Assembly: GCA_019694835.1 (NCBI GenBank)
Contig: JAIBBE010000171.1
Coordinates: 1-6,565, forward strand
From: Fimbriimonadaceae bacterium
GTDB taxonomy: Bacteria > Armatimonadota > Fimbriimonadia > Fimbriimonadales > Fimbriimonadaceae
Direction of reading: 5' to 3'
DNA: 6,565 bases
A program made the translations under genes and the position numbers. Positions 1-6,565 of the stretch are shown here, piece after piece (the first letter of the stretch is position 1; each line of letters begins with the position of its first letter). Under the pieces are notes generated by a model, which worked only from the letters and a program-made list of their open reading frames with translations, had not been told where the DNA came from and ran no database searches.

Positions 1-3000
1 TTCGCCATCGTCGGCAACGACGACAAGCCGCTGATGCTCGTCCATGTCCACGGGGCGGACGTCGATCTCGATGCCACCTCGAAGCTGGACGGCTGGGCCA
101 GCACACCGGCGGAACGCATGGTGACGCTCTGCCGCGCCACGGGATGCCGTCTCGGCCTCGTCACCAACGGCGAGCGCTGGATGCTGGTCGATGCGCCGGT
201 GGGCGCGGTCACCACCTTCGCCAGCTGGTATGCACGCATCTGGGGCCAGGAACCCGTCACTCTCCAAGCCTTCGTCCATCTCTTGGGCATCCGGCGCTTC
301 TTCGTGGACGAGTCCGAACGACTGCCTTCGCTGTTCGAGCGCTCGCTGAAGTTCCAGGACGAAGTGACCGACGCCTTGGGCGAGCAGGTACGGCGTGCCG
401 TCGAAGTGCTTATTCAGGCGCTCGACAAAGCCGACCAAGACCGCAGCCGCGAACTGTTGCGCGGCGTGAAGGAAGCCGAACTCTACGAAGCCGCGCTGAC
501 GGTGATGATGCGGCTGGTCTTTCTGCTTTCCGCCGAGGAACGTGGCCTGCTGCTCTTGGGCGATGAACGCTACGAAGCCAACTACGCGCTCTCGACCTTG
601 CGGATGCAATTGCGCGCCGAATCAGACGAGATTCTCGAGCGCCGCTGGGACGCATGGTCGCGCCTGCTGGCCGTGTTCCGTGCCGTGTATGGCGGCATCG
701 AGCACGAAAACTTGCGTCTGCCCGCGTTGGGTGGCTCCCTGTTCGATCCGGATCGCTTCCCCTTCCTCGAGGGCCGAGCCAAAGGCTCCGACTGGCGCAT
801 CGACGTCGCCAAGCCGCTGCCCATCGACAACCGCACCGTCTTGCTACTGCTCGAAGCCATCCAGCAATTCCAGGGGCGCACGCTGTCGTATCGGGCGCTG
901 GACGTGGAGCAGATCGGCTACGTCTATGAGGGCCTGCTGGAACGCACAGTCAAGCGCACCTCCGAGGTCACGCTGGAACTCGACGGCACTAAGAGTGCCC
1001 AGTCGCCCTGGGTCACGCTGGCCGAACTCGAATCGGCACGGCTCGACGGTGTAGAACGACTCGCCGAACTGCTTCAGGAGCGTTCTGGCAGTTCCGCCAG
1101 CCGCGTGCGCAACGATCTGAACCGTGCCGTGGACGATACGCTCGCCGATCGCGTTTTGACGGCCTGCCACGGCGACACGGCGCTGCGCGACCGCATCAAA
1201 CCCTTCGGCCATCTGGTGCGCACCGACCCGTGGGGCTACCCGCTGATCTATCCCGCCGGTGCCTTCATCGTCACCACCGGCTCCGATCGGCGTGAGACTG
1301 GCACCCACTACACGCCGAAGTCGCTCACCGAGGCGATAGTCGCCGAGACGCTCACACCCATCGCCTATGTCGGCCCGGCGCAGGGCACGCCACGCGCGGA
1401 CTGGGTGCTGAAATCTCCCGCCGAACTACTCGACCTGAAGATCTGCGATCCAGCCATGGGGTCGGGCGCATTCCTCGTGCAAGCTTGCCGGTGGTTGGCC
1501 GACCGGCTGGTGGAAGCATGGGCGCAGGCCGAGGCTCGGGGTAGCACGGTCGGGGCCGATGGACGAGTGGTGGTTGCCGACGCAAGCAGCGAGCCGCTGC
1601 CGCGCGACACCGAGGCTCGCACCATCGTCGCCCGCCGCCTCATCGCCGAACGTTGCCTCTACGGCGTCGACCTGAACCCGCTGGCAGTCGAACTGGCCAA
1701 GCTTTCCATCTGGCTGGTGACGCTGGCCAAGGGGCGCCCCTTCGGCTTCCTCGACCACAACCTGCGCTGTGGCGACAGCCTACTCGGCATCCATAAGCTG
1801 GATCAACTGACCCAGCTTTCGATGAATCCCACGGGCCAAGGCCAACTGCGCCTGTTCGGCCAGAACATCGAACGTGCTGTGATTGAGGCCATCGAGCTGC
1901 GGCAACGATTGCGCGAGATGCCCATACGGGACATCCGCGACGTGGAAGCCATGGCGCATCTGGACGCCGATGCGCGGCGTAGGCTTGAAGTGCCTGAACG
2001 CATCGCCGATGCGTTCATCGGGGAGGTGTTCGCATCTGGTGGCAATGGCGCGGGGCTAGAAAACGCGTTGGCGTCGCTGACCATCCAAGCTGGACAGGTC
2101 ATCGACGGTGATCGGGACGTTCTCACCTCAATGCGCCGGAGATTGATCGACGCACTTTCGACTGATCTGCCGGGCGACAAGCCCGTGCGGCGACCTTTCC
2201 ATTGGCCCTTGAATTTTCCTGAGGTCTTCGAAAGGACCACGACTGGGTTTGACGCGATAGTTGGAAATCCTCCATTCCTGGGTGGAAAAAAGATTAGTGG
2301 CGCTATCGGTGAACCGATGCTGCGATATCTCAAGGCGACGACGTCAGACACCGGTGCAACAACAGACTTGTGCGCCTACTTCTTCCGAAGGGGCGCTCAA
2401 ATTTCTGGGAGTAATGCCACAGTAGGATTGATTGCGACGAATACGATTTCAGAAGGTGATACACGATCTGCAAGTCTGGACTATCTTTGCAAATCGTTCA
2501 AAGTCATATTTGCCATTAAGTCACTGCCTTGGCCTGGAGTTGCGAATCTCTCTGTTGCAATAGTCGTATTCTGTAAATTTGAGTGGAACGCGGCCACTGT
2601 ATTGGACGGACAGCAAGTAAGCGCGATTAGCCCTTTTCTTACCAAAGACGAGTTTGGGATTTCCAAGCCGTATCCGATCAATGTTGACGGGCGACAGGCC
2701 TATATGGGCACGATTGTTCTCGGTGAAGGATTCGTAATCACGCAAGAGCAGGCTCGCGATCTCATAGCCAGCAACCAAAATAATGCGGATGTGATATTTC
2801 CGTACATGAATGGAGATGATCTCGCAAGCCGTTTCGACCAGTCGCCTAGCCGTGCAGTGATTAATTTCGGAGATAAGTCACTTGATGAGGCTAAAGCCTA
2901 TTTAGAGCCATATCGAATTGTCGAGGAGCTAGTGAGACCCCAACGAGAGAAGGTCAAGAGAGACTCCTATAGAAACAAATGGTGGCAGTTTGCGGAAAAA

Positions 3001-3939
3001 TGCAAGAATTTGTACTCTGCCATCAGTGGCAGCAGTGAAGTGCTGGTTTGCGGCAATGTCTCGAAATATCTGAATTTCGCGTTTGTGCCCATTGGCCCAA
3101 TCTTCACCGCAAATGTTTTTGTATTCAATATCAAGAGTTATGGTGACTTTGCATGCCTCCAGTCAGCATTGCATGAAAGCTTTGCAAGAGCCTTTAGCTC
3201 AACTCTCGAAACTAGGCTGAGCTACAGTCCTCGCGATGTCTTTTATACGTTCCCATTCCCGTCTGATACATCAAGCCTTGATGATGTAGGGATTCGATAC
3301 CATAAGATTCGGTCCCGCTTGTTGACGGGAAGAAAAGTTGGGTTAACCAAGTTATTCAATGACTTTCACAATCCGATTGAATGTGATTCGGACTTGAAGA
3401 CGCTTCGTGATTTAACTGAGGCTCTGAACTATGCGGTACTTGCCTCATACGGCTGGCGAGACATAGATCTCCAAATGGGTTTTCACGAGGTTACTTACCT
3501 ACAGGGCAACGACCGCACGCGATACACAATAAGCGATACGGCTAGGATTGAAGTGCTACGCCGACTCTTGGATTTGAACCAAAGGCGATATGCCGATGAG
3601 GTCAAGCAAGGCCAGCATGCTCGCACAATTGCGGGTTCACGAACTAGCAAACCTGGCGTCCAACGAACGACTAATTCTTTGGTGCTTCAACCTTCGTTTG
3701 ACTTTGAGCCAAGTGTAGCTGCCACCGCCAACGACGCGACGCCATCTTCGGCAATCCTCGGCTTCCTGGGGGCACGTGGTGGCTGGCATGCCAAAGCCGA
3801 TGTCCTCGCAGCCACCGGCATCACGGACGGACAGTGGAACGCCGCGATTGCCGACTTGATCTCGGGTGGCAGGGTTCAGCGCCAAGGCGAGAGGCGGGGG
3901 GCAAGGTATAGCGCCGTAAAGGACAACGGAGAAGCATGA
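1..3939 (+). CDS. Eco57I/type IIG-like N6-adenine DNA methyltransferase, 5' partial
   Basis: The protein is predicted to transfer a methyl group from S-adenosylmethionine to the N6 of adenine in a specific DNA site. The frame is open from base 1 and has no start or ribosome site near the ATG at 34, so the true start lies upstream. Numbering from that ATG: residues 1-60 are the end of an HsdR_N-like domain (LGLVTNGERWMLV). Residues 75-400 are the helical linker typical of this class (VMMRLVFLLSAEERG; IGYVYEGLLER). Motif X-like GTHYTP is at 423-428, SAM-binding motif I DPAMGSGAF at 472-480, motif II GVDLNPLAVELA from 544, and catalytic motif IV NPPF at 745-748. LPWPGVA is at 831-837. A target-recognition region spans about 850-1170, and a winged-helix-like tail about 1238-1294. 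Codons for about 850-1229 are AT-richer than the rest. The stop overlaps the next start (ATGA), so the genes are probably co-translated. The methylase class is secure. Whether it also cuts DNA is not, because the nuclease-like part is mostly outside the window. A PglX- or DrmMI-like role in BREX or DISARM is an alternative. Confidence 0.93.
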   Translation, partial: FAIVGNDDKPLMLVHVHGADVDLDATSKLDGWASTPAERMVTLCRATGCRLGLVTNGERWMLVDAPVGAVTTFASWYARIWGQEPVTLQAFVHLLGIRRFFVDESERLPSLFERSLKFQDEVTDALGEQVRRAVEVLIQALDKADQDRSRELLRGVKEAELYEAALTVMMRLVFLLSAEERGLLLLGDERYEANYALSTLRMQLRAESDEILERRWDAWSRLLAVFRAVYGGIEHENLRLPALGGSLFDPDRFPFLEGRAKGSDWRIDVAKPLPIDNRTVLLLLEAIQQFQGRTLSYRALDVEQIGYVYEGLLERTVKRTSEVTLELDGTKSAQSPWVTLAELESARLDGVERLAELLQERSGSSASRVRNDLNRAVDDTLADRVLTACHGDTALRDRIKPFGHLVRTDPWGYPLIYPAGAFIVTTGSDRRETGTHYTPKSLTEAIVAETLTPIAYVGPAQGTPRADWVLKSPAELLDLKICDPAMGSGAFLVQACRWLADRLVEAWAQAEARGSTVGADGRVVVADASSEPLPRDTEARTIVARRLIAERCLYGVDLNPLAVELAKLSIWLVTLAKGRPFGFLDHNLRCGDSLLGIHKLDQLTQLSMNPTGQGQLRLFGQNIERAVIEAIELRQRLREMPIRDIRDVEAMAHLDADARRRLEVPERIADAFIGEVFASGGNGAGLENALASLTIQAGQVIDGDRDVLTSMRRRLIDALSTDLPGDKPVRRPFHWPLNFPEVFERTTTGFDAIVGNPPFLGGKKISGAIGEPMLRYLKATTSDTGATTDLCAYFFRRGAQISGSNATVGLIATNTISEGDTRSASLDYLCKSFKVIFAIKSLPWPGVANLSVAIVVFCKFEWNAATVLDGQQVSAISPFLTKDEFGISKPYPINVDGRQAYMGTIVLGEGFVITQEQARDLIASNQNNADVIFPYMNGDDLASRFDQSPSRAVINFGDKSLDEAKAYLEPYRIVEELVRPQREKVKRDSYRNKWWQFAEKCKNLYSAISGSSEVLVCGNVSKYLNFAFVPIGPIFTANVFVFNIKSYGDFACLQSALHESFARAFSSTLETRLSYSPRDVFYTFPFPSDTSSLDDVGIRYHKIRSRLLTGRKVGLTKLFNDFHNPIECDSDLKTLRDLTEALNYAVLASYGWRDIDLQMGFHEVTYLQGNDRTRYTISDTARIEVLRRLLDLNQRRYADEVKQGQHARTIAGSRTSKPGVQRTTNSLVLQPSFDFEPSVAATANDATPSSAILGFLGARGGWHAKADVLAATGITDGQWNAAIADLISGGRVQRQGERRGARYSAVKDNGEA
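2400..3720. other. Low-GC block inside the methyltransferase gene (target-recognition region)
   Basis: Hand counts of 60-base lines give about 70% GC at 1201, 58% at 2161, 52% at 2221 and 2281, 57% at 2341, 42% at 2401, 38% at 2461, 47% at 2881 and 43% at 3661. The value then jumps to 68% at 3721 and 65% at 3781. The reading frame is unbroken throughout. The drop is gradual on the left, starting soon after the NPPF motif, and sharp on the right, where the winged-helix tail begins. AT-ending codons such as ATA, AGA and TTA become frequent inside the block. The block covers the part of the enzyme expected to read the DNA sequence, which fits replacement of a specificity module by recombination. 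Selection on the protein sequence alone could also lower GC, but it would not readily give so sharp a right edge. Confidence 0.7.
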
Positions 3940-3941
3940 TG
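3928..3941 (+). promoter_or_regulatory. Ribosome-binding site and ATGATG tandem start at the 4-base gene overlap
   Basis: GGAG at 3928-3931 lies within the last codons of the methyltransferase gene. It is 4 bases from the ATG at 3936 and 7 bases from a second in-frame ATG at 3939. The first ATG shares bases with the upstream stop (ATGA), the usual layout for termination-reinitiation coupling. The spacing fits the second ATG better. The two starts differ by one methionine only, so the product is essentially the same. Confidence 0.6.
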
Positions 3942-4760
3942 GGACGAGAGCTACAACGTCTCAAACGGCGAAAGTCGACGATCCAGAAAATGGATGCCCT
4001 TCTGGATCAGGCATCGACCTCCCTTGTAATTCATTACTCCTGTGAGAGCTTTTACGATAAGACCGATGGGCGCACACCAAGAGTTACATCAATAGCGGTA
4101 CGAAACCTAGCATCTGGACAGACGGACTCATTCTCTATTCACCAGATCGCTGAAGAACGCGGCGTCGCATTCAACGAAATCGACCTGCATTACGACGACA
4201 TGGAAAAGGCCATGTTGAGTCGTTTTTTCGATTTTGTTCGGAGCCATCAGCATTTCAATTGGATTCACTGGAACATGCGGGATGTGAACTATGGTTTTGC
4301 CGCCATAGAACATAGACTCAGGGTTCTCGGGGATGTGCCAATACAGATCGCCGAGGATCGAAAATTTGACTTATCTCGAGCGCTCGTAGATCTCTATGGT
4401 GTTGGGTATATAGGCCACCCACGATTAGAGACGCTCATTGCCAAAAACAAAATTACCAACAAGGATTTCCTGACGGGGAAAGAAGAGGCGGCCGCCTTTG
4501 ATGGCAAAGAGTTCGTCAAACTGCATCAGTCGACACTTCGCAAGGCAGACACACTTGCAAACATCTTCGAACGCACTTCGACAAACAGCCTCAAAACCAA
4601 CTCGTCTTGGTTTGAGTGCCATGGATATACGCCAGCGGCCATCGCCGAATGGGCGAAAGAACACTGGCTCGTATCAGTCCTGGCTGTAGGCGGCATTGCG
4701 CTCACATTCGTTGTTCGCGCATTCGACCTCCTGAAGATCTTATCTGTTGGGGGAGGTTGA
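3936..4760 (+). CDS. Unrecognised protein: possible degenerate DEDD exonuclease-like domain plus C-terminal membrane segment
   Basis: I do not recognise this 274-residue protein with confidence. Residues 1-25 are basic and helical. Residues 28-215 alternate strands and helices in an order like a DEDD 3'-5' exonuclease or RNase H-like fold. A first strand ends in HYSCESF (33-39), where E37 survives but the usual preceding Asp is Ser35. A middle helix follows HWNMRDVNYGF (111-121), at the place of the HN-x-x-F-D motif. A late helix LHQSTLRKADTLANIF (196-211) stands near the usual H-A-D motif. The full set of metal-binding acids is not convincing, so the domain may be non-catalytic or a different fold. 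Residues 244-260 (WLVSVLAVGGIALTFVV) form one hydrophobic stretch followed by Arg, suggesting a tail-anchored inner-membrane protein with its main domain in the cytoplasm. The gene overlaps the methylase gene by 4 bases and ends 1 base before the GHKL gene, so it is very probably part of the same system. Its GC content (about 45-50% in sampled lines) is lower than that of the next gene. The CDS is firm; the fold is a guess. Confidence 0.88.
   Translation: MMGRELQRLKRRKSTIQKMDALLDQASTSLVIHYSCESFYDKTDGRTPRVTSIAVRNLASGQTDSFSIHQIAEERGVAFNEIDLHYDDMEKAMLSRFFDFVRSHQHFNWIHWNMRDVNYGFAAIEHRLRVLGDVPIQIAEDRKFDLSRALVDLYGVGYIGHPRLETLIAKNKITNKDFLTGKEEAAAFDGKEFVKLHQSTLRKADTLANIFERTSTNSLKTNSSWFECHGYTPAAIAEWAKEHWLVSVLAVGGIALTFVVRAFDLLKILSVGGG
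4749..4756 (+). promoter_or_regulatory. Strong Shine-Dalgarno for the GHKL ATPase gene
   Basis: GGGGGAGG sits 5 bases before the ATG at 4762. It is embedded in the last glycine codons of the upstream gene, so it also explains that protein's Gly-Gly-Gly end. It decides the start at 4762 over later in-frame ATGs at 4804, 4822 and 4837, which have no comparable site. No promoter is expected here because the genes are separated by a single base. Confidence 0.75.
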
Positions 4761-4761
4761 T

Positions 4762-6565
4762 ATGACGAACAGCTACTTGGAAACTTATCAGGGTGAGTGC
4801 TCCATGCCTCCGACCCAAGCCATGCCGACGTTCGAGATGACCGTCGATCTCAACGTCCTCGAACATCTTGGCATCAATCTCTACAGCAATATCGCCGCCG
4901 TCCTGACCGAAGCGGTCGCCAATGCATGGGACGCGGATGCGTCGAACGTGCAGATTCGTGTCGATCCGAACAACGAGTGGATCGAGATCGAGGACGACGG
5001 GATCGGCATGTCCGTCGACGACCTGAACGGCAAGTACCTGCGCGTCGGATACCGGCGTCGCGACGAGGATTCGGAGCACGGGTGTAGGACGGCCAAGGGC
5101 CGCCCGGCCATGGGTCGCAAGGGACTGGGCAAGCTGTCGTTGTTCTCCATCGCCAACGTCATCGAAGTGCAGTCTGCCAAGGATGACCACACGCACGGCT
5201 TTCGCATGAGCGTGCCTGGCATCCACGAGGCCGTTCAGGAGAAGCGACCCTACCACCCCGAGCCGCTTACGAGTGATGTGCTCACCGTGACGCAGGGGAC
5301 GAAGATTGTGCTGCGCGAGATCAAACGGCAACGTCTCGGCAAGGGGGTGAGTGCATTGCGCAAGCGACTTGCCCGCCGCTTCTCGATCATCGGTCAGGCC
5401 AATGGTTTCGAGATCAAGATCGACGGTCAACCTATCACGGCGGCCGATCGCGGCGATCTGCCCAAAGCCCAGTTCCTCTGGACGTTCGAGGGTTACGAGC
5501 CGGAAGCCAGCACCATCGCGCACGTCGTGGAGCGCGAATCGCTGTCCGCGCGGTTCGACGCCTGGGATTCGGCCTGGCGCGTGAGCGGTTGGCTTGGCAC
5601 CGCGCGCAAGCCCAAAGACCTCGACGACGAGGAAGCAGGCAATCTCAACGGCATCGTGGTCTTCGCTCGAGGTCGCTTGTTTCACGAAAACGTGCTCGAC
5701 CGTCTGAACGACGGGCGGCTCTATACGAAATATCTCACCGGGCAGATCGAGGCAGACTTCCTTGATGCGGACGACCAACCGGACATCGCCACCAGCGACC
5801 GCCAGCGCGTGCAAGAGGATGACGAGCGGTACATCCAGTTGATCGCTTTTCTCAAGTCGCGCCTGGGACAAATCGAGAAGCAGTGGAGCGAATGGCGTAG
5901 GAAGCACGAAGTCAAGGAAGCGGAGAAGGCTTCCCCCGCTCTCACCGAATGGCTGAGTACGCTGCGTGAAGGCCACAGGAAGAGCGCAGAGACGCTCATC
6001 GCCAAACTGAGTGCACTTCCGGTGGATGACGAGGACGACCGCAAGACCCTTTATAAGCACGGAATCCTTGCCTTCGAGCGAATGAAGCTTCGAGGCTCCA
6101 CGGATGAATTCGTGATGGGCGTGGAAAGCTCCGACAAGTTGCTGGCCGTGCTCGCCGACCGCGACGCTCTGGAAGATTCGCTCTACCGCGACATCGTGCG
6201 ATCACGGCTCGAAGCCATTCGCGCCTTCCAAAAGCTCGTTGATGACGACGAGAAGGAAAAGGTGCTCCAGAAGTACCTTTTCGATCATCTGTGGTTGCTC
6301 GACCCTTCGTGGGAGCGGGCGACTGGGACCGAAGTCATGGAAACACGCTTATTGGACTCAGGGATTGTTGTCGAGGATTTGACCAAGAAGGAAGAACTCG
6401 GTCGCGTGGACATCAAATATCGTTTGATGGCTGGAAAACACATCGTGGTCGAGCTGAAGAAAGCTGGCCGCAACATGAAGCTCCTCGAACTTCAGGAGCA
6501 GGGTCAGACCTACGTAGACAAGCTCAAGAAGATTCTGCTCGCGCAGAACGAGCCAACGCCGAACA
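4762..6565 (+). CDS. MutL/MORC-like GHKL ATPase fused to a PD-(D/E)XK nuclease-like domain, 3' partial
   Basis: 601 codons are visible and the frame runs off the window. It was probably missed by ORF callers that need a stop. Residues 24-185 are a GHKL ATP-binding fold. The N-box is TEAVANAWDADA, with E50, N54 and D57. The G1 box is DDGIGM (78-83), the G2 box GRKGLGKLSLFSIA (118-131), and a GT motif lies at 179-180 (TQGTKIVL). Residues 190-350 resemble the MutL/MORC transducer domain (GIVVFARGRLFHEN; DIATSDRQR at 341-349). Residues 360-500 are mostly helical and charged. From about 495 comes a nuclease-like module: LQKYLFDHLWLLDPSWE, then GRVDIKYR with D550, VVELKK with E564 and K566, and QGQTY with Q580 and Y584. 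That is the D...ExK...QxxxY order of PD-(D/E)XK enzymes, and its lead-in resembles Shedu-type (DUF4263) domains. The inferred role is ATP-dependent clamping or sensing of DNA followed by cleavage. GHKL-nuclease fusions beside methylases are known in R-M loci. The GHKL call is secure; the nuclease call is strong by motif but incomplete because the C-terminus is missing. Confidence 0.92.
   Translation, partial: MTNSYLETYQGECSMPPTQAMPTFEMTVDLNVLEHLGINLYSNIAAVLTEAVANAWDADASNVQIRVDPNNEWIEIEDDGIGMSVDDLNGKYLRVGYRRRDEDSEHGCRTAKGRPAMGRKGLGKLSLFSIANVIEVQSAKDDHTHGFRMSVPGIHEAVQEKRPYHPEPLTSDVLTVTQGTKIVLREIKRQRLGKGVSALRKRLARRFSIIGQANGFEIKIDGQPITAADRGDLPKAQFLWTFEGYEPEASTIAHVVERESLSARFDAWDSAWRVSGWLGTARKPKDLDDEEAGNLNGIVVFARGRLFHENVLDRLNDGRLYTKYLTGQIEADFLDADDQPDIATSDRQRVQEDDERYIQLIAFLKSRLGQIEKQWSEWRRKHEVKEAEKASPALTEWLSTLREGHRKSAETLIAKLSALPVDDEDDRKTLYKHGILAFERMKLRGSTDEFVMGVESSDKLLAVLADRDALEDSLYRDIVRSRLEAIRAFQKLVDDDEKEKVLQKYLFDHLWLLDPSWERATGTEVMETRLLDSGIVVEDLTKKEELGRVDIKYRLMAGKHIVVELKKAGRNMKLLELQEQGQTYVDKLKKILLAQNEPTPN

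Follow-up and report, generated by a model that had tools for sequence, protein, structure and literature searches.

The window analysed here, the whole stretch of 6565 nt on contig JAIBBE010000171.1 of a Fimbriimonadaceae bacterium, carries three genes on one strand: gene 1, encoding DrmMI, the adenine methylase of the anti-phage system class 1 DISARM; gene 2, encoding a protein with an exonuclease-like fold; and gene 3, encoding a restriction enzyme of the BbrUII/HgiDII family (Table 1). As a preliminary description of this DNA had noted, the genes are tightly packed, with a 4-base overlap (ATGA) between the drmMI stop and the gene 2 start, and the single base 4761 between the gene 2 stop TGA and the gene 3 ATG. 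A second ATG, at 3939, is the start residue in most of 37 aligned gene 2 homologues, so that a 1-base TGATG overlap with drmMI is likely. Genes 1 and 3 are both cut short by the window edges; the length is 1434 amino acids (aa) in P0122, which is related to gene 1 at 89%, and 658 aa in the gene 3 homologue of the viral locus L203 (see below). In the gene 1 protein cluster no contig exceeds 6565 bases, so that the window probably spans an entire metagenome contig. The three frames are not due to chance, because gene 1 scores 1782.7 and 1904.4 bits with two PADLOC models, gene 3 scores 798.5 bits with its family model, and for gene 2 a set of 4440 candidates yielded 3318 homologues (E ≤ 1e-3). 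We consider it likely that the window covers an inner portion of a class 1 DISARM operon, in which drmMI is followed by a two-gene cargo (gene 2 and the BbrUII-type enzyme) at the position where drmA directly follows in cargo-free operons.

Table 1. Genes and sequence features of the window
Feature	Position	Strand	Remarks
Gene 1, DrmMI, class 1 DISARM adenine methylase	1..3939	+	open at window start, 1312 aa; ~120 N-terminal residues missing
MmeI_N-like N-terminal part of gene 1	109..414	+	PF20464 23.4 bits, under cut-off 27
GNPPF in gene 1	2263..2277	+	N756-P757-P758-F759 invariant across 21 sequences
DrmMI target recognition domain, AT-rich stretch	2722..3264	+	PF20466 48.5 bits
ATGA overlap, drmMI stop / gene 2 start	3936..3939	+	sequence read over 3840–4920, as for base 4761
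Gene 2, probably a membrane-anchored pseudo-exonuclease (PHROG 8766, unknown function)	3936..4760	+	274 aa; likely true start 3939
HYSCESF in gene 2, at the position of the Exo I D-x-E motif	4032..4052	+	S35 invariant, E37 at least 90% in 47 sequences
C-terminal hydrophobic helix of gene 2, predicted membrane anchor	4668..4724	+	19-residue hydropathy 2.16
Gene 3, BbrUII/HgiDII-family restriction enzyme	4762..6565	+	from ATG, 601 aa; C-terminus cut by window end
GHKL boxes E50, N54, D78, G80, G82 in gene 3	4909..5007	+	invariant in 9 aligned family members
Nuclease motif D550 ... E564-L-K566 in gene 3	6409..6459	+	D550, E564, K566 invariant in 9 aligned members

Gene 1 and the DISARM loci of its relatives

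Gene 1 matches the PADLOC DrmMI model at 1782.7 bits, and Pfam recognizes in it the methylase domains Eco57I and MmeI_Mtase together with the recognition domain MmeI_TRD, which upholds the earlier call of a large adenine methylase. The GNPPF, which we take to be the N6-methylase motif, is invariant among relatives, and gene 1 thus agrees with class 1 DISARM both in its DrmMI match and in this motif. Its domains, and its sequence match in the PDB (MmeI, 5hr4), are shared with MmeI-type (IIG/IIL) enzymes; it differs from these in that no nuclease was found in the same chain. MmeI_N remains under its cut-off, and the E-x-K motif of PD-(D/E)XK nucleases was not seen, by eye, in the N-terminal part of gene 1 or of 14 relatives retaining the N-terminus, so that the chain looks methylase-only. 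A BREX-like locus, also suggested in the preliminary description, was discarded because the PglX models gave only 40.6, 36.9 and 18.6 bits on gene 1, against cut-offs of 500, 900 and 400. Close relatives are patchily distributed, being found in 6 of 399 genomes of one order (E ≤ 1e-90) and, for two classes, in 2 of 376 and 2 of 360 genomes (E ≤ 1e-120). In public records several DrmMI homologues carry the name 'ATP phosphoribosyltransferase regulatory subunit', apparently by mistake.

The genomic context of gene 1 relatives was determined in 26 counted loci, a convenience sample of nine plasmid, four IMG/VR and thirteen genome loci. The nine plasmid loci were viewed out of 412 plasmid records matching gene 1, and all nine belong to the 30 records with a query coverage of 80% or more. 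The DrmMI profile gave 45 IMG/VR loci, from which L203, L204, L229 and L230 entered the junction count; L231–L233 were annotated, L234–L239 were judged by tblastn scores alone, and the remaining ones are weaker. L146, a contig of 3,963 bases, was dropped. The loci are not independent, as the members of L006/L222, of L223/L224 and of L138/L218/L219 share their kind of cargo. In L007 one picked open reading frame (ORF) joined drmC to drmB sequence and was labelled drmB by hand, and in L136 drmB and drmC were missed by ORF picking and are present in the record annotation.

Class 1 DISARM comprises drmD, for an SNF2 helicase, drmMI, drmA, for a second helicase, drmB (DUF1998) and drmC. Each of the 26 counted relatives sits with drmD, drmA or both. 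The drmD gene lies upstream of drmMI, mostly directly, in 25 of the 26 loci, and drmA was found in all 23 loci with enough sequence, in the same orientation in 21. Annotated drmD, drmA and DUF1998 (drmB) genes are present in all nine plasmid loci viewed, and drmC in six of them. Moreover, all relatives at least 50% identical to gene 1 that could be viewed are in DISARM loci. Our template locus is L203 (IMGVR_UViG_3300043178_000066), whose drmMI is 63% identical to gene 1 and whose order is cytosine-5 (m5C) methylase, vsr, drmD, drmMI, PifA-like KAP NTPase, BbrUII, drmA, with drmA starting 12 bases after BbrUII. The window has the same gene order, with gene 2 standing where PifA stands. The L203 drmD reaches 1434.9 bits with the DISARM DrmD model (cut-off 610), and for its truncated drmA the best model is DISARM DrmA, at 613.1 bits, under the cut-off of 950.

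A DISARM-related system, ARMADA, is described in sections of PMC12458937 as having a YprA-like helicase with a fused DUF1998 module, a BrxHII-like helicase and a PglX-like methylase. These genes would lie outside the window; the loci of gene 1 relatives carry drmA and drmB as separate genes, and the truncated L203 drmA scores best with DISARM DrmA. DISARM itself is described, in sections of PMC9142583, with DrmMI and/or DrmMII plus auxiliary genes; compared with class 1, the window has two genes more, which follow drmMI.

Cargo at the drmMI|drmA junction

Each DISARM junction was examined for cargo, defined as frames of 150 aa or more on the same strand. Such cargo is present in 2 of 25 loci at drmD|drmMI, 10 of 21 at drmMI|drmA, 0 of 17 at drmA|drmB and 0 of 6 at drmB|drmC. 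Thus, in the sampled loci, drmMI|drmA is the preferred junction. The remaining 11 loci are free of cargo there (e.g. L007, L135, L136, L215, L216, L226); L132 and L134, which have antisense or small genes in this slot, were counted as empty.

The cargo is diverse, with six kinds in ten loci, in addition to that of L204 and of the window. These are PifA plus BbrUII in L203; a UvrD-type helicase (972 bits) with DUF2290 (268 bits) in L223, with a pair of the same size, not scanned, in L224; a reverse transcriptase UG5-nitrilase (948 bits) in L227; a GHKL plus Methyltransf_35 pair without PADLOC match in L006, shared by L222 at 84% and 77% identity; an AAA15 ATPase (PtuA 107, AriA 91 bits) with a weakly AriB-like protein (25 bits) in L137; and weakly RmrA-like proteins (64–70 bits) with partners in L138, L218 and L219. 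L204, which is cut before drmA, has an NsnA-like GmrSD_N protein (168 bits). In the recurring set of L138, L218 and L219, the weakly RmrA-like protein has ~370 aa and its partner ~170 aa; the two partners scanned gave no match with PADLOC. One of the two cargo cases at drmD|drmMI is a Schlafen-group-3 helicase protein in L224 (PDC-S41, 737 bits).

A 4-base overlap between the drmMI stop and the first same-strand ORF of the slot is found in L203, L137, L223, L224, L006 (as annotated) and the window. In a partial literature search, titles and abstract openings held nothing on cargo at drmMI|drmA, and on this scope the slot cannot be claimed as unpublished.

Gene 3 is a BbrUII/HgiDII-type restriction enzyme

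The preliminary description saw in the methylase and the GHKL nuclease a restriction logic unlike that of classical type I, II or III systems. By its score, gene 3 belongs to an already named restriction enzyme family, as it exceeds the equivalog cut-off of NCBIfam NF050001 (BbrUII/HgiDII; 798.5 bits against 550). It is 73–74% identical to BbrUII of L203 and 36–48% to the seven other members compared. The GHKL ATPase and PD-(D/E)XK-like nuclease domains noted earlier are borne out by the nine-member alignment, and both motifs are intact, as in BbrUII/HgiDII enzymes. Among 398 genomes searched with NF050001, 388 match, mostly weakly, and one lies above the cut-off. The same domain order is found in paraMORC3, described in sections of PMC2292703 as GHKL proteins with a C-terminal domain of restriction endonuclease fold, where the neighbourhoods of related GHKL genes include cytosine methylases, Vsr and SF2 helicases. 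Gene 3 may thus be a paraMORC3 member; DISARM, which was named later, is unmentioned in those sections.

To place gene 3 in context, the best 80 of 98 BbrUII loci in IMG/VR were considered, 55 of them strong. A related m5C methylase lies within 1.5 kb in 54 of the 55. The exception is L206, which is one contig with L203; there the m5C gene is ~9.9 kb off, upstream of drmD. Within the window no m5C gene adjoins gene 3: none is present in the 4.7 kb before it, which genes 1 and 2 fill, and the downstream side is cut by the window end. Given the cytosine methylase beside 54 of the 55 relatives, the adenine methylase was rejected as the partner of the GHKL enzyme, and with it the earlier proposal that adenine methylation is the self mark for this nuclease. 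Gene 2 was found in none of the 55 strong loci and DISARM genes in one. Relatives of genes 1 and 3 occur together without gene 2 in L203, and lie close to each other in a Deinococcus plasmid. In this plasmid (Deinococcus sp. AJ005, L141/L007) a complete BbrUII restriction–modification set (vsr, m5C methylase, restriction enzyme) adjoins drmC, and the DISARM slot is empty.

An m5C methylase upstream of drmD in related loci

In the near subclade of gene 1 relatives, an m5C methylase precedes drmD in all nine loci with visible upstream sequence (L006, L203, L204, L216, L222, L223, L224, L226, L227), and in four of them vsr lies between the two genes; L229 starts inside drmD and was outside this count. 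Hence the near subclade differs from class 1 DISARM in having both methylase kinds. Only one of the nine loci, L203, has BbrUII. The two of these methylases that were scanned with PADLOC score best as DrmMII (299 and 309 bits), with a type II methylase model at 293 in both. Their recognition stretch resembles that of the methylases of stand-alone BbrUII (L140, L142, L207, L208, L220), at an overall identity of 48–56%. From this resemblance we infer that the m5C methylase and the BbrUII enzyme have equal specificities. The simplest reading is that the m5C methylase belongs to DISARM and that the restriction enzyme was recruited to an already protected site.

M.HgiDII, which acts on GTCGAC, and M.BbrUII are both 5mC methylases and share homology with a single archaeal protein (PMC5867850, in part). 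The ATPase of DrmAB is reported to be stimulated by unmethylated DNA and to be slower with 5-methylcytosine DNA (PMC9142583, in part), and class 1 DrmA has an EVE-like domain, a predicted reader of modified bases (PMC12458937, in part).

Gene 2 has an exonuclease-like fold and other neighbours

Consistent with the exonuclease-like protein with a membrane tail described earlier, gene 2 matches the fold of DEDD 3′–5′ exonucleases and ends in a hydrophobic helix; hydropathy 1.6 is reached near the C-terminus in 40 of 47 aligned family rows, some of which are cut short. A PDB sequence search gave no match up to E 1 with gene 2 alone and none up to E 10 with the 47-row profile. The rows of VIA-align are Foldseek's own candidates only, and the absence of other folds there is uninformative.

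The set of four catalytic acidic residues of a DEDD 3′–5′ exonuclease was not found in gene 2. The catalytic residues of family-B polymerase exonucleases are the Asp positions used for this mapping. If the fold match is followed, the Asp of the Exo I motif is the invariant S35 in the gene 2 family, and by alignment offset only, the other two expected Asp positions map to G120 (probably) and K203. A catalytically normal DEDD exonuclease was rejected because of these replacements. Compared with the exonuclease domain of family-B DNA polymerases (KOD, Tgo), gene 2 thus differs in its apparently replaced catalytic aspartates, in having no polymerase domain and in its hydrophobic C-terminal helix. 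S35, E37, D116, S199 and K203 are invariant or nearly so in the 47 sequences. Gene 2 is probably a membrane-anchored, non-cutting exonuclease fold.

Flanks of 116 gene 2 loci were fetched (80 from genomes, the best of 228, and 36 from viruses). No BbrUII match and no strong DISARM match was found in any of the 116; weak matches are a helicase in L070 (121 bits) and L079 (144 bits), a methylase in L038 (133 bits), L043 (110 bits) and L069 (100 bits), and vsr in L029 (84 bits). Among 20 genomes carrying gene 2, seven have gene 1 relatives, by partial matches only (best 1.2e-30). These neighbourhoods do not support three genes that travel together. Neighbours were read in 112 of the 116 loci; 39 are operon-like, and of the 30 scanned with Pfam about six match restriction–modification families (HsdR-type in three cases, a specificity subunit in one and a methylase in one or two), the remainder falling into other families or having no match. 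Gene 2 homologues lie beside hsd genes in L039, L063 and L072. In this they resemble PrrC-type accessory genes, a likeness of place only, since neither Pfam nor PADLOC shows a PrrC-like match for gene 2. Of the neighbours, chosen ones were scanned with PADLOC. PrrC is kept silent by its linked type I enzyme (PMC2610378, in part). TrlF was dropped as a general partner, being seen in L003 only. In L038, L040 and L049 a gene 2 homologue is followed by genes of 419 and 848 aa, the larger being argonaute-like in L038 (253 bits).

The G+C content is 0.468 in drmMI 2261–3600 and 0.493 in gene 2 (3936–4760), compared with 0.643 in drmMI 1–2260 and 0.588 in gene 3. The lower values in the recognition half of drmMI and in gene 2 suggest separate acquisition.

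Weighing the readings

The DISARM reading is preferred because of the gene 1 models, the drmD/drmA synteny of relatives, the L203 order and the junction counts, and also because of the m5C gene upstream of drmD in 9 of 9 loci, the family and motifs of gene 3 and the fold of gene 2. We infer the flanks of the window itself by analogy with these loci: a cytosine-5 methylase, perhaps vsr, and drmD would be expected upstream, and drmA and drmB downstream. Several observations weigh against this reading. The window ends before any drmD, drmA, drmB or m5C gene. On gene 1 the PADLOC model REase_MTase_IIG outscores DrmMI (1904.4 against 1782.7 bits). Among the relatives, L228 has no drmD match, drmA is inverted in L133 and L217, and no m5C gene was seen in the 20 kb read of L215, which is a DISARM locus further removed; for the partial methylase relatives L231–L235 (32–40% identity), tblastn at E 1e-8 gave no DISARM match in the fetched stretches. 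Gene 2 is in no other DISARM locus seen, and its Foldseek match is a weak one (E 2.6e-3 at best), prolidases and transposases also appearing within the top 50; the stronger fold Z comes from re-examining the very same Foldseek candidates.

If the type IIG score were taken at face value, together with the MmeI methylase and recognition domains, gene 1 could be a solitary type IIG/IIL enzyme beside an unrelated BbrUII restriction–modification system in a defence island, without DISARM helicases. This we hold to be improbable, because the E-x-K motif is unseen in the chain and its relatives, the viewable relatives of at least 50% identity sit in DISARM loci, and the 4.7 kb before gene 3 has no room for the m5C gene of such a system. 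About equally improbable is a decayed DISARM remnant in which drmMI and cargo were retained and the helicases lost. Broken DISARM loci do exist, as drmMI is in two pieces around a 526-aa frame in L227 and split over two frames in L219 and L229, but the window frames are free of internal stops, and genes 1 and 3 retain their motifs. Of the preliminary proposal, a defence role is supported, as is the option of a DISARM core with its helicases outside the window, and the independent three-gene system is not. For the latter, in which the adenine methylase marks self, the GHKL nuclease cuts and gene 2 helps at the membrane, the tight overlaps do imply joint expression; yet gene 2 and BbrUII relatives were never together in the 116 and 55 loci, all 26 counted gene 1 relatives have drmD, drmA or both, and the partner of BbrUII relatives is a cytosine methylase, so that we give it hardly any credence. 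Concerning gene 2, the strong conservation of S35, E37, D116, S199 and K203 would fit an active enzyme with a rearranged active site in place of a dead exonuclease, which we regard as unlikely in view of the Ser, probable Gly and Lys at the expected polymerase exonuclease Asp positions, as given by alignment offsets.

DISCUSSION

In the DISARM reading, DrmMI would place its adenine mark at a site of its own, and the BbrUII/HgiDII-type site would be marked by the m5C methylase encoded upstream. Unmodified incoming DNA would be attacked by the DISARM helicase machinery, and sites lacking 5-methylcytosine would be attacked separately by the cargo BbrUII enzyme, whose nuclease may be gated by ATP through the GHKL module. 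At the inner membrane, gene 2 may bind a ligand or DNA ends, as a sensor or effector beside restriction systems; as a guess, it would either capture the ends of DNA that enters there or monitor the restriction machinery in a PrrC-like manner.

A bolder extension, which we put forward tentatively and rate below even chances, is that drmMI|drmA is a dedicated docking slot, linked to drmMI through translational coupling, for other complete defence modules, which would be expressed jointly with DISARM (PifA plus BbrUII, helicase plus DUF2290, reverse transcriptase-nitrilase, PARIS/Septu-like pairs, GHKL plus Methyltransf_35). The cargo enzyme of one lineage would have shed its own methylase and would use the cytosine methylase of DISARM, with one mark licensing two independent attacks. 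Gene 2 would then be a new portable restriction accessory, a membrane-anchored dead exonuclease sensing DNA ends or a failing restriction enzyme.

If the DISARM reading is true, the DISARM operon would also be an internal landing place where helper defences are swapped under joint expression, and the drmMI-to-drmA interval would be a place to look for undescribed defence genes. In one case the cargo would sit under DISARM's own methylation mark, making a layered defence with one self mark testable. Moreover, the large unstudied gene 2 family would gain a fold and a context.

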